A stretch of DNA of 64,000 bases from the NCBI RefSeq assembly GCF_041381155.1, contig NC_091134.1, forward strand, positions 29,393,540-29,457,539, read 5' to 3'. The position numbers and the translations under genes were made by a program. The notes below the pieces were generated by a model. That model was not told the origin of the DNA. It saw only the letters and a list, made by a program, of their open reading frames with translations, and did no database searches. Of the stretch, positions 7,101-51,500 are shown piece by piece. The number at the start of each line of letters is the position of its first letter. The stretch's first letter is position 1. The DNA comes from Argopecten irradians (lineage: Eukaryota; Mollusca; Bivalvia; Pectinida; Pectinidae).

Positions 7101-10100
7101 TCTGCTGTAGGAAGGAAAGGATATGGTTTATATTTGGTCAGTAGCATTTTTGATTGTAAGGAATTTTAGATCATCTGACCTGATGCTGACCTGGTCCTGA
7201 TCAAGTGTTGTTATTTTTTCGCGTCAATCGGAAATCCGAGATGGTTGCCATGGCTGCCATGTTGAAATATTTTTAATAAGTTTTATTGCTAAGATTAAGC
7301 TGAAACTTGCCTGAAATGATCATGTCTTTTAGCTAAAGGTATTAAATATCATTGGGAGAGGACAATCATATTTTACATTAATATGAGTCTGGTTCAATTC
7401 CCAGGGGCAGAGAGATAGGGCCCTAAAAAGGGAACTTTTCTAAACAATTAAACCTATCTTTTTGATCTTTATCTAAAGGTTTAATGAGCAGTTTTAATAT
7501 TATCTCACATAGGGCCTGGGAAAGACCATACAAACAATATCATTTGTTGCTCATCTTCTCGAAGAAGGAGAACCAGGGCCACATGTGATCATCGTCCCCT
7601 CGTCTACCATAGGTAAGTCATTGTCCCCTCATCTATTATAGGTAAGTCATTGTCCCCTCATCTACCATAGGTAAGTCATCGTTCCCTCATCTACCATAGG
7701 TAAGTCATCGTCCCCTCGTCTATTATAGGTAAGTCATCGTCCCCTCGTCTATTATAGGTAAGTCATCACCCCCTCGTCTACCATAGGTAAGTCATCGTCC
7801 CCTCGTCTACCATAGGTAAGTCATCGTCCCCTCGTCTATTATAGGTAAGTCATCGTCCCCTCGTCTACCATAGGTAAGTCATCGTCCCCTCGTCTACCAT
7901 AGGTAAGTCATCGTCCCCTCGTCTACCATAGGTAAGTCATCGTCCCCTCGTCTACCATAGGTAAGTCATCGTCCCCTCGTCTATTATAGGTAAGTCATCG
8001 TCCCCTCGTCTACCATAGGTAAGTCATTGTCCCCTCGTCTATTATAGGTAAGTCATCGTCCCCTCGTCTATTATAGGTAAGTCATCATCCCCTCGTCTAT
8101 TATAGGTAAGTCATCGTCCCCTCGTCTATTATAGGTAAGTCATCGTCCCCTCGTCTACCATAGGTAAGTCATCGTCCCCTCGTCTACCATAGGTAAGTCA
8201 TTGTCCCCTCGTCTATTATAGGTAAGTCATCGTCCCCTCGTCTACCATAGGTAAGTCATCGTCCCCTCGTCTATTATAGGTAAGTCATTGTCCCCTCGTC
8301 TATTATAGGTAAGTCATTGTCCCCTCGTCTATTATAGGTAAGTCATCGTCCCCTCGTCTATTATAGGTAAGTCATCGTCCCCTCGTCTACCATAGGTAAG
8401 TCATCGTCCCCTCGTCTACCATAGGTAAGTCATTGTCCCCTCGTCTACCATAGGTAAGTCATCGTCCCCACGTCTATTATAGGTAAGTCATCGTCCCCTT
8501 GTCTATTATAGGTAAGTCATCATCCCCTCGTCTATTATAGGTAAGTCATCGTCCCCTCGTCTATTATAGGTAAGTCATCGTCCCCTCGTCTACCATAGGT
8601 AAAGTCATCGTCCCCTCGTCTACCATAGGTAAGTCATTGTCCCCTCGTCTATTATAGGTAAGTCATCGTCCCCTCGTCTACCATAGGTAAGTCATCGTCC
8701 CCTCGTCTATTATAGGTAAGTCATTGTCCCCTCGTCTATTATAGGTAAGTCATTGTCCCCTCGTCTATTATAGGTAAGTCATCGTCCCCTCGTCTATTAT
8801 AGGTAAGTCATCGTCCCCTCGTCTACCATAGGTAAGTCATCATCCCCTCGTCTATTATAGGTAAGTCATCGTCCCCTCGTCTACCATAGGTAAGTCATCG
8901 TCCCCACGTCTATTATAGGTAAGTCATTGTCCCCTCGTCTATTATAGGTAAGTCATTGTCCCCTCGTCTATTATAGGTAAGTCATCGTCCCCTCGTCTAT
9001 TATAGGTAAGTCATCGTCCCCTCGTCTATTATAGGTAAGTCATCGTCCCCTCGTCTACCATAGGTAAGTCATCGTCCCCTCGTCTATAATAGGTAAGTCA
9101 TCACCCCCTCGTCTATAATAGGTAAGTCATCGTCCCCTCGTCTACCATAGGTAAGTCATCACCCCCTCGTCTATAATAGGTAAGTCATTGTCCCCTCGTC
9201 TATAATAGGTAAGTCATCGTCCCCTCATCTACCATAGGTAAGTCATCACCCCCTCGTCTATTATAGGTAAGTCATCGTCCCCTCGTCTATAATAGGTAAG
9301 TCATCACCCCCTCGTCTACCATAGGTAAGTCATCGTCCCCTCGTCTACCATAGGTAAGTCATCACCCCCTCGTCTATAATAGGTAAGTCATCACCCCCTC
9401 TTCTACCATAGGTAAGTCATCGTCCCCTCGTCTATTATAGGTAAGTCATCGTCCCCTCGTCTATTATAGGTAAGTCATCGTCCCCTCGTCTATTATAGGT
9501 AAGTCATCGTCCCCTCGTCTATTATAGGTAAGTCATCACCCCCTCATCTATTATAGGTAAGTCATCGTCCCCTCGTCTTTTAGAGAACTGGATGAGGGAG
9601 TTCTCAGTGTGGTATCTGTATGTTATAGAGAACTGGATGAGGGAGTTCTCAGTGTGGTATCTGTATATTCCATGTTAAAGAGAACTGGATGAGGGAGTTC
9701 TCGGTGTAATATATGTATGTTCTATATTATAGAGAACTGGATGAGGGAGTTCTCGGTGTGGTATCTGTATGTTCTATGTTATAGAGAACTGGATGGGGGA
9801 GTTCTCGGTGTGGTATCTGTATGTTCTATGTTATAGAGAACTGGATGAGGGAGTTCTCGGTGTGGTATCTGTATGTTCTATGTTATAGAGAACTGGATGA
9901 GGGAGTTCTCGGTGTGGTATCTGTATGTTCTATGTTATAGAGAACTGGATGAGGGAGTTCTCGGTGTGGTATCTGTATGTTATAGAGAACTGGATGAGGA
10001 AGTTCTCAGTGTGGTATCTGTATGTTATAGAGAACTGGATGAGGGAGTTCTCGGTGTGGTATCTGTATGTTCTATGTTATAGAGAACTGGATGAGGGAGT

Positions 10101-48594: not shown

Positions 48595-51500
48595 GTAACA
48601 TCTTAATCTTTTTATCATTTCTAGTAATGTTTATCCTAAAATCTATTTATTATCATTTCTAGTGAATGTTTATCCTAAATCTGGTAACTATGTTTATCAT
48701 TTAGTAAATCCTAAATCTGGTAACTATTTATTATCATTTCTAGTGAATGTTTATCCTAAATCTGGTAACTATTTATTATCATTTCTAGTGAATGTTTATA
48801 TTAAATCTGGTAACTATTTATATCATTTCTAGTGAATATCCTAAATCTGGTAACTTTTATTATCATTTCTAGTAAATGTTATCCTAAATCTGGTAACTAT
48901 TTATTATCATTTCTAGTAATGTTTATCCTAATCTGGTAACATCTTTAATTATTTATTTCATTCTAGTAAATGTTTATCCTAAATCTGGTAATCTACTATT
49001 TATTATCATTTCTAGTGAATGTTTATCCTAAATCTGGTAACTATTTATTATCATTTCTAGTGAATGTTTATCCTAAATCTGGTAACTATTTATTATCATT
49101 TCTAGTGAATGTTTATCCTAAATCTGGTAACTATTTATTATCATTTCTAGTGAATGTTTATCCTAAATCTGGTAACTATTTATTATCATTTCTAGTGAAT
49201 GTTTATCCTAAATCTGGTAACTATTTATTATCATTTCTAGTGAATGTTTATCCTAAATCTGGTAACTATTTATTATCATTTCTAGTGAATGTTTATCCTA
49301 AATCTGGTAACTATTTATTATCATTTCTAGTGAATGTTTATCCTAAATCTAATATATTCCAGTAAATGTTTATCCTTAATCTGGTAACTATTTATTATCA
49401 TTTCTAGTGAATGTTTATCCTACATCTGGCAACTATATCCTATTATTTCTAGTGGATGTTTAAACTTTTCGTTAAAAAAGTTCTACATTCAAATCAGCTA
49501 CGATTGTAATTAATTATTTCTTGTATAAGTGAACATGAGAGCAATCATGTTCGTTCCCTGTATCACGTTGTCTGGCTTCCCATCGTGCTGTTTGATAGGA
49601 CTGACTATATCTGTTATGTTGCCACTGCTTTGAAACATTTTTATGTTTCAGTGATTTTTGTTCTTGGCTTCGTAATTCTTTTGTTTGTTTACTTAGCACT
49701 CCTTAACTTTTTATGTATTATTTGGGAAAATTATATATTACGAAGAGTGCGTTATAGATCGAGTAATGAAAAAATGGCGTCGTGTTTAATTACAGGTACC
49801 CACTGGCTCTATAACACTGTGATGATGTTACGATCAGGAACCTTGGATTATCATGGCACTCCTACCATGATGGAACTACAAGACTTCAACTTAATCGAAG
49901 AAATGCCATCACCCAGGACTTTCGGATCCCATCTACGTTGCCGCTTCCTTCCCGAACAGATGAAAAACGGGAAAGGGAAGGTTATCACTATTACACGTAA
50001 TCCAAAGGACATCGTGGTATCTTTGTATCATATGATTAGGCAGTTTAAACGATTTGTTGGCTACGAAGGGACATTTGACGGTATAGTGAAGTACTTCCTC
50101 ACAGAACAGTGTAAGGTCATATACTAAGTTTGTGGTATTTCACAAAATCAACTGCATACTGTTATTAATATCCCGTATAAAGTTACATTAAAGTCGATAT
50201 GTAATTTTCTCTTCTCAGTCTTTACTTTCGGATCATGGTTTTCCTGGACAAAAGACATGGAGGAATGGAATAGTCCAAACTGTCTGACACTTTGCTTCGA
50301 GGACTTTAAGAAGGTACGTGAATGTTGATGCGAAACTGCAAACAATTTAGATTCTAAGAATGACTTTTTTTTTTAATCATGAATTATGTTCAGCTGGGGA
50401 TTAGAAGTTTTTTTAAATTTGTGTTTCGATATGCATGGTAACATACGCAGGTTCATATACAATATAACCATAAGATTTAAGTTAATTGGTTATACAAACT
50501 TTCAAGTAGCAATCTAATTAAAATTAAACTAGTAATTCCCCTCCACTACGATACTCTACGTTACGCTCCAATACAAGATCTAACGATGCCCCGTTCGAGG
50601 TCACCTCAGCATGACCTCTGGCCTAGAATTGGAACATCTCGGGACGTACTATTATCCGTTTACACTTCCGAATGAATCAACCACACCGAAGATTCCGTAG
50701 GCGACACGCTGATTGGCTAACCATAGGGGTCATGCGGAGGTGACCTCGAACGGGGCATCGTTAGATCTTGTATTGGAGCGTAACGTAGAGTATCGTAGTG
50801 GAGGGGAATTACAAGTCTAATTTTAATTAGATTGTTTCAAGTAGCATTTTGATTCTAAGTCTAAAAATGCGATTTTCATTTTTGTTTAATGAAATCTGAT
50901 TTAGATAATGTTTACCCAGTCAACACGAAAATAGAAAGGGATTTTAATTTGCATTATTTCGGTCATGCATGTTTCATTTTAAAAACAAGACAGTTAATCC
51001 CATGTTAACAATTCATCTTAAGCTCACCTGGCCCGAAAGGTAGGCTTATGAGCGTGGCGCCCGTCGTCCAGCGTCCATCCCATCAACAATTCTTTTAAAT
51101 CGCTACTAATCATGAACGACGCAGTGGATTATTACCAAATTTGGTCTGAAGTATCTTAAGGGGAAGGATAGGTTTGTATAAAACGTAGCTCTGGTTCTGT
51201 TGCATTAAAGGATTTGACTCATATTTGGTCTACAGTATCCTTGACTGAAAGGGAACCAGTTTAGTGTACGCCAAGGGTCAAATGCGCAGGGACCCAATAA
51301 ATGTAATGCTACAAAGGAATAAAGCAAAATTGGCTCATATTTGGTCTGCAGCATGCTTGACTGAAAGGAACCATTTTTTTATAAGCCAAGGGTATGGGTC
51401 CCGGAGTATGGGTGTCAGAGCCGCAGTAGGGCCAATAGGGGAAATTTTGCAAATTATTTATAATCCTTTTTCTGCTTGTTGCTCAAATGTGATCATACAT

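Follow-up and report, generated by a model that had tools for sequence, protein, structure and literature searches.

Tandem arrays spanning exon–intron junctions in Argopecten irradians and their relation to amphioxus mirages

Described duplications of exon–intron boundaries

Tandem duplications of exon–intron boundaries, known as mirages, have been described in amphioxus, where they occur in Adh3, in the globin genes BflGb6 and BflGb9 and in TnC, with like repeats in PGBD5 (PMC3087553, PMC3902484). According to the available parts of these reports, the Adh3 units measure 10–72 bp (PMC3087553, PMC3902484), and the Adh3 data together with globin RT-PCR suggest that splicing is regular despite the mirages (PMC3087553). 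In human segmental duplications, internal tandem repeats with units of about 30 bp likewise lie at exon–intron boundaries, where, in the accessible text, such repeats can change how recent paralogs are spliced and give rise to novel introns in them (PMC2812944), whereas the exon edge seems unchanged in the scallop arrays presented here. Intron gain through tandem duplication of an AGGT segment, as outlined in the available portions of the sources, also duplicates splice-signal sequence (PMC4974935; discussed in PMC3087553); that model yields a new intron (PMC4974935), and the scallop arrays are compared with it on splice-signal duplication alone. Intronic minisatellites have been reported in an abalone TSSK1-like gene (PMC6905558) and an earthworm metallothionein gene (PMC12783039), in accounts whose available text does not state junction-spanning units. 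The C. elegans minisatellites near alternative exons were also considered and, as far as the accessible part of the report describes them, constitute another phenomenon (PMC4039745).

The scallop arrays belong to this described class of mirages. The original prediction, which knew of no described class for such repeats, had overlooked the amphioxus tandem duplications of exon–intron boundaries, as presented in the available parts of those reports. Common to both is a tandem unit that contains an exon–intron boundary, at either exon end. In amphioxus many copies, not all, keep their splice signals, as far as the accessible text goes, and the scallop donor arrays likewise retain GT in 221 of the 238 donor units cut (a count taken from donor arrays only). 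The scallop arrays differ in their mollusc host, in reaching up to about 78 copies and in being known here from genomic sequence alone; unlike the amphioxus mirages, they have been followed through four gene families of one genome (SMARCAD1, SULT, myosin and kinesin) with their junction density measured. In the literature searched, the previous record of mirages consisted of a handful of amphioxus genes and no report from a mollusc was found, so that their range now takes in a mollusc and four gene families.

Junction arrays in a SMARCAD1-like gene and two SULT paralogs

The window, a stretch of 64,000 nucleotides, holds one SMARCAD1-like gene and two SULT paralogs. Arrays were called with TRF and their units were also compared by eye with the exons in the sequence, while exon limits were set from the reading frame, the splice sites and a SMARCAD1 alignment. 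In five arrays an exon edge and its own splice site are repeated at or beside that junction, namely at the donors of exons e, g and k, at the acceptor of exon n and at the donor of SULT-B exon 1; the array adjoins its authentic boundary directly at e, g and k, and via degenerate copies at n and SULT-B. Six splice-spanning arrays had been proposed, of which these five stood, while the sixth, consisting of copies of the exon f acceptor, sits about 1.8 kb ahead of the real exon f and is not contiguous with an authentic boundary.

On the plus strand, exon e of the SMARCAD1-like gene (7513..7612) ends at the donor CCATAG/GTAAGT, the slash marking the junction after 7612, and is overlapped by its donor array (7589..9582), with about 69 copies of a 29 bp unit made up of 24 exon nt and GTAAG. 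The exon f acceptor-copy array follows at 9583..10125, with about 10 copies of a 52 bp unit of ~22 intron and 30 exon nt, and the e–f intron also contains an 87 bp array (10339..11327) in which a junction origin was not seen. Copies of the exon f acceptor also form a second cluster, now decayed, at ~11345..11480 (limits approximate, by eye), which is situated inside a recurrence of ~9948–10340 at ~11330–11703, with 87.5% identity over 401 bp. The real exon f occupies 11932..12070, as placed by frame, splice sites and SMARCAD1 alignment. Exon g (12745..12880; donor ATACAG/GTGAGA) carries a donor array at 12868..13102 with 9 copies of a 25 bp unit (13 exon and 12 intron nt), and exon k (16059..16160; donor TATGAG/GTAGGT) one at 16136..18972 with 78 copies of a 36 bp unit (25 exon and 11 intron nt). 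At the acceptor side, exon n (23808..23990, placed on the same three grounds as exon f) is preceded by an array at 23447..23779 with about 7 copies of a ~49 bp unit of ~29 intron and ~20 exon nt, the real acceptor being held in one more degenerate copy beyond the array. All of these features lie on the plus strand, as do two further intronic arrays that had been placed less than 20 nt from an acceptor. This distance holds for the 37 bp / 120 bp array at 2849..3485, which stops 7 nt short of exon b (3492). The second one, a 37 bp array, ends at 1077 as called by TRF (1..1077) and reaches ~1110 by eye through a decayed part-copy, with exon a starting at 1129.

The coding part of SULT-B exon 1 (48423..48594, plus strand) has the donor AAATCTG/GTAACA. 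Its donor array, called by TRF at 48708..49462 on the same strand, contains about 14–16 copies of a 45 bp unit of 28 exon and 17 intron nt, and degenerate unit copies, starting at 48595, bridge the donor at 48594 and the TRF-called array. SULT-A is an inverted paralog with a 38 bp array in intron 1 (34316..36840, minus strand; 66 copies), which is not junction-derived and whose unit matches SULT-B at one place only, ~49517–49565; the expanded unit differs between the two paralogs.

The units consist of contiguous genomic exon and intron sequence and are not back-copies of spliced RNA. Every donor unit read comprises the exon end, GT and at least 3 further intron nt, and every acceptor unit read has at least ~22 intron nt leading up to AG. 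In the window, GT is retained in 68/68 units at exon e, 72/78 at k, 8/9 at g and 14/16 at SULT-B; in donor arrays of the myosin and kinesin sample treated below, it is retained in 8/11 units of L058a, 12/12 of L052, 13/13 of L033, 10/10 of L048, 4/4 of L042 and 12/17 of L038 (one of 18 units having been dropped). The donor core is invariant or nearly so across units in e, L052, L033, L042 and L048 and in SULT-B it is conserved more strongly than the remaining positions; in k, g, L058a and L038 it shows no such advantage.

Arrays and splice junctions beyond the window

An independent sample was drawn from myosin and kinesin genes, chosen by protein family and not by repeats, with 470 junctions. 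Junction arrays, which TRF and sequence reading had established as real in the unrelated genes of the window, recur here, and arrays in general cover 11% of the sampled sequence. Exons were located with a finder trained on 111 exons, its recall being given on those same exons; the width of the spanning band was assumed to be 40 nt, expected numbers derive from the array density in flanking introns, and density was counted on 49 of 50 loci, L026 being left out for its overlap with L009. Among 42 arrays with at least three copies, all read at both flanks and including one (L021/L036) that may be a single array present in two loci, 13 span a junction against ~4.2 expected (P = 4e-4), corresponding to mirages at about 3% of sampled splice junctions (13/470, five hand-added). 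The 13 comprise 8 arrays detected automatically and 5 added by hand, and the hand additions lean towards an excess, since exons missed by the finder elsewhere were not added; the automatic count alone gives 8 against 4.2 (P = 0.06). With 508 junctions in place of 470, the expectation becomes 4.6 and P for 13 becomes 9e-4. A ninth automatic spanning array, L056, was judged false by eye, and a 22 bp array at L058, wrongly labelled as a junction array in a tally of 14, stands outside the hand count. At donors, 9 spanning arrays were found against 2.1 expected (P = 3e-4; automatically 6, P = 0.02), and at acceptors 4 against 2.1, which is not significant (P = 0.16; automatically 2). The junction-spanning excess is modest, about threefold with hand additions and twofold automatically, and is clearer for donors than for acceptors.

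Repeats of 2–3 copies displayed no junction excess (3 against 2.8 expected), and copy number and identity are alike in junction arrays and the others. Two arrays of the sample, L022 and L029, are not contiguous with the authentic boundary. A strong excess at 0–30 nt from junctions, which had been predicted, did not appear: array edges number 2.9 per 10 kb at -5..30 nt, 3.4–3.8 at 30–100 nt, 0.8–1.6 at 200–500 nt and again 2.9 at 500–1000 nt, with no steady fall with distance. The spanning band itself holds 4.8 per 10 kb automatically and 6.9 with the hand additions and without the false array. Donor-like sites in the units were more frequent on the sense than on the antisense strand, in 20 against 7 of 70 arrays at a score of at least 3 (sign test, P = 0.02) and in 10 against 2 at a score of at least 4 (P = 0.04), the 70 counting L021/L036 twice and leaving out L026 and L054; merging two array pairs that are possibly single gives 18 against 7 (P = 0.04).

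Similarity was also tested at 210 annotated junctions. This test, which favours long arrays, yielded 8 matches at junctions against 13–21 at intron positions 60–400 nt away and 3 at exon positions 40–60 nt away, a result against enrichment. It has been kept as evidence and not as the main null because array expansion pushes fixed-distance positions into arrays; it shows that junctions are not favoured above all other positions. The expectation that arrays occur at exon edges more often than chance would allow is partly borne out, by the spanning counts and for donors above all, and not by the acceptors or the similarity test.

Patterns were also counted genome-wide, with both strands summed, all matches included in the counts and two copies defined as 10–40 nt apart. 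The donor motif CAGGTAAGT has 19,404 single, 3,256 two-copy and 2,488 three-copy matches, against 5,409, 120 and 68 for the same motif read backwards as a control. In runs, the motif gives 768 in 16,148 places (4.8%) against 52 in 5,289 (1.0%) for the backward form by Fisher test, a comparison in which runs are not independent because one array breaks up into several runs where copies are mutated. A second control, ATGGACTGA, gave 7,064 and 167, and its backward form AGTCAGGTA 6,869 and 1,074; the latter contains CAGGTA, yet its single count is not raised, so that the donor motif is equalled in its degree of repetition by one control of the three. For ACAGGTAAGTA, 409 two-copy rows were obtained against 53, and those among the matches listed all come from three arrays, so that row counts are governed by a few long arrays. 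The acceptor motif TTTTTNCAGG gave 14,988 and 164 against 13,844 and 94, and holds too few real acceptors for a judgement. With one of three control motifs misbehaving, the pattern counts point the same way as the sample and are supportive only.

Origin and meaning of the arrays

The arrays are probably mirage minisatellites, in which a piece of exon edge was tandemly duplicated and multiplied in place in a nearly neutral manner, the modest donor excess arising mostly after duplication. A short DNA piece crossing the exon edge would have been duplicated in tandem and then multiplied in situ, and such duplications would be tolerated because each unit carries a whole splice site, so that the exon-contiguous copy, the only one needed for the gene's reading frame, still defines the exon. 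Splicing presumably stays with this outermost copy; were it still used, the remaining copies would be intron and their expansion nearly neutral, and slippage or unequal exchange may let copy number drift. As for the surplus at donors, it seems to build up once a first duplication exists and not by seeding, a reading that rests on 3 events against 13; arrays holding a required splice site may spread, or may be lost more slowly.

Seeding, whereby transcription or splicing (polymerase pausing, R-loops or U1 at 5' splice sites) would raise the rate of tandem duplication at the edges of exons and especially at donors, is unlikely. It would account for the donor excess, the sense-strand bias and array edges that are denser within 100 nt of exons than at 200–500 nt, though not than at 500–1000 nt; however, repeats of 2–3 copies, the nearest to fresh duplications, occur at junctions no more than expected, the acceptor excess is not significant, and junction arrays resemble the others in copy number and identity. 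These observations lend no support to the local mechanism for making duplications at splice junctions put forward as one alternative in the original prediction. Plain chance, under which a minisatellite-rich genome carries arrays anywhere in its introns and the few that span junctions were noticed, is a shade less probable still: the 11% array coverage, the similarity matches that are no commoner at junctions than inside introns and the automatic count taken alone would agree with it, while the hand-checked total, the donor counts by either method and the strand bias of donor motifs would not. Selection for the arrays, with repeated splice sites changing splicing through U1 recruitment or in-frame alternative donors, appears very improbable. 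It finds some agreement in the GT retained throughout the e units and in most k units, and in the exon k frame, which stays open through the 6 extra units tested, on to 16877, and in which every unit would insert 12 residues; on the other hand, a stop follows within 1–2 units from the later donors of e, g and SULT-B, 7 of 19 junction unit lengths are divisible by three, as at chance level, and the donor cores of k, g and L058a are conserved to no greater degree than the remainder of their units. An assembly artefact, with repeats wrongly extended, is the least credible account, since units within an array differ from one another, such arrays occur at many loci in contigs of tens of Mb, and the expanded unit is not the same in SULT-A and SULT-B, even if copy numbers derive from assembled sequence.

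Mirage minisatellites multiplied nearly neutrally, as preferred here, leave only a doubtful place for a further idea, that this genome's splice donors offer minisatellites a special substrate for spread or retention, a few per cent of donors bearing tandem decoys and some, as at SMARCAD1 exon k, in-frame alternatives. If this were true, in-frame donors of the exon k kind could yield proteins that differ in how many 12-residue repeats they contain and would constitute a splice-based source of length variation. Testing in bulk has now become possible for how the spliceosome picks a single donor when tens of copies are nearly identical, and for whether arrays seed new introns or cryptic exons. 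The arrays also carry a warning for annotation, as gene models can put an exon end in the wrong copy.

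Exon-edge arrays and genes of the window

The window (G000:C1:29393540-29457539) belongs to a genome that spans 845.8 Mb over 1508 contigs. Its first gene is SMARCAD1-like, with SNF2-rel_dom and Helicase_C domains carried by exons a-n, which are joined in frame. When exons e-n were compared with the SMARCAD1 chain 9jao_C, which we take to be human, all 455 residues were matched (E 1.2e-168). The remaining genes are two inverted sulfotransferase paralogs (window 33877-37484 and 48423-50127), their second exon being 91% identical over 356 bp; SULT-B was assigned by a PF00685 match and SULT-A by likeness. 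Two successive transposase-like reading frames, presumably mariner/Tc1-like by their motifs, occur at window 44347-46047 and contain long runs of the same protein sequence, as would be expected if a portion of an element had been tandem-duplicated.

Arrays were detected by TRF and then compared with the exons. Six junction arrays had been noted, and five of these copy a real exon edge at or beside the junction. Four are donor arrays, with units of 24 exon and 5 intron nt (exon e), 13 and 12 nt (exon g), 25 and 11 nt (exon k) and 28 and 17 nt (SULT-B exon 1), while exon n has an acceptor array of about 29 intron and 20 exon nt. The sixth consists of copies of the exon f acceptor (63-66 bp stretches at the real exon f match its units at 87-92%) but is located 1.8 kb 5' of that exon; the region around 9948-10340 recurs before exon f at 11330-11703, with 87.5% identity over 401 bp. 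The exon e unit (window 7589-9582) is pyrimidine-rich, TATTATAG followed by GTAAG, and resembles an acceptor fused to a donor, as in a recursive splice site, in about 69 copies.

A different minisatellite has expanded in intron 1 of each sulfotransferase gene. In SULT-A, an intronic unit of 38 bp that matches a single place in SULT-B is repeated 66 times, and no donor array of the SULT-B type was detected in SULT-A by TRF, so that at least one expansion or loss must have followed the gene duplication.

Frequency of arrays at junctions

An independent sample of the same genome comprised 20 stretches over clusters of myosin-head exon matches (part of 82 matches) and, from 130 kinesin matches, the 30 loci ranked highest by E-value, 272.7 kb in total, from which the 111 of 212 matches lying well inside the fetched stretches were used as exons. 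Muscle myosin exons at one locus (L039) matched 1dfk and 1dfl, two scallop myosin chains which we assume to be from Argopecten irradians, with no mismatch visible in about 206 residues of the longest stretch; the bay scallop is thus the probable source of the genome. Arrays make up 11% of the sampled sequence. All 42 with at least three copies and a period of up to 120 were inspected at both flanks, and 13 have junction-spanning units: donor arrays at loci L058 (two), L052, L045, L033, L038, L048 and L042, with that of L022 set back from the real donor, and acceptor arrays at L057, L058 and L045, with that of L029 set back. One exon at L057 has arrays at both ends, the first an acceptor array and the second abutting the donor. 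Several loci (window 24523-25631 and 31756-32188; L019, L020, L037 and L050) also contain tandem units of 155-163 bp, which exceed the local minisatellites in length.

A simple exon finder returned 219 sense and 14 antisense exons at threshold 14, with a recall of 90/111 measured on its own training exons. Threshold 13 gave 470 junctions for distance counts, in which edges of arrays with at least three copies numbered 4 at -5 to 30 nt, 5 at 30-60 nt, 6 at 60-100 nt and 42 at 100-1000 nt. From the density at 30-1000 nt, and with a band assumed to be 40 nt wide, 4.2 spanning arrays would be expected. Nine were found automatically, one was judged false and five were added by hand; the resulting 13 give P 4e-4 (9e-4 with 508 junctions), and the eight automatic ones P 0.06. 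Donors account for nine against 2.1 expected (P 3e-4; six automatic, P 0.02) and acceptors for four against 2.1 (P 0.16; two automatic), while repeats of 2-3 copies in the same sample show no junction excess (3 against 2.8). These counts therefore indicate a two- to threefold excess due to donors and expanded arrays. The units also show a sense bias, since in an annotation-free comparison of 70 arrays the best donor score in the unit favoured the sense over the antisense strand by 20 to 7 at score 3 and 10 to 2 at score 4. A genome-wide pattern test likewise supports donors, with one of three controls failing.

A similarity test, biased towards long arrays, speaks against enrichment, with 8 matches at 210 junctions, 13-21 in intron interiors (as many positions as junctions, minus those at locus ends) and 3 in exons. 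Junctions are accordingly not singled out as hot spots, and the junction-targeted mutational process raised in the original prediction is unsupported by the tests run here.

Origin and persistence of the arrays

Junction and other arrays are alike in copy number (median 9 and 8) and match (90 and 86%), in a comparison in which one array was mislabelled, and thus probably originate from the same process. A tandem duplication over an exon edge would leave one edge intact, in the first copy at a donor and the last at an acceptor, whereas units without a working splice site would disrupt splicing and be eliminated. The unit limits, read by eye, fit such a loss: donor units hold GT and at least three more intron nt, and in acceptor units the intron part measures at least about 22 nt. 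The donor excess probably arises after the first duplication, and array expansion itself is probably neutral.

GT is retained in 221 of 238 donor units cut, and the spliceosome must therefore pick the exon-contiguous copy among many. In amphioxus, such a choice is suggested by results for Adh3 and by RT-PCR of globins (PMC3087553), and splicing is likely to select it in the scallop as well. Use of later donors in exons e and g and SULT-B exon 1 leads to a stop within one or two units and would thus be costly. In exon k (window 16059-16877) the frame is open across all six units tested and continues so to 16877; if later donors were used there, the protein would gain 12 residues with each unit.

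Relation to known junction repeats

Tandem repeats containing exon-intron boundaries are known in amphioxus as mirages, reportedly named for Adh3 by Canestro et al. in 2002. The original prediction knew of no described class of such arrays, a view overturned by two papers on mirages (PMC3087553, PMC3902484). Outside amphioxus, boundary repeats have been reported in human (PMC2812944); aside from these, no report of junction-spanning arrays was recognised among the matches listed, a weak absence because open-licence PMC literature alone was covered. Intronic minisatellites have been published for a mollusc, the abalone, with no junction stated in the text available (PMC6905558). The scallop junction arrays are real and fairly frequent, of a known kind now found in a further phylum, and they show a modest excess at donors.

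Chaperonin exons score equally on G000:C4:11.56-11.57 Mb and G000:C451:7-57 kb. This may reflect a haplotig or a recent duplication, and the pair could permit allele comparison of arrays.
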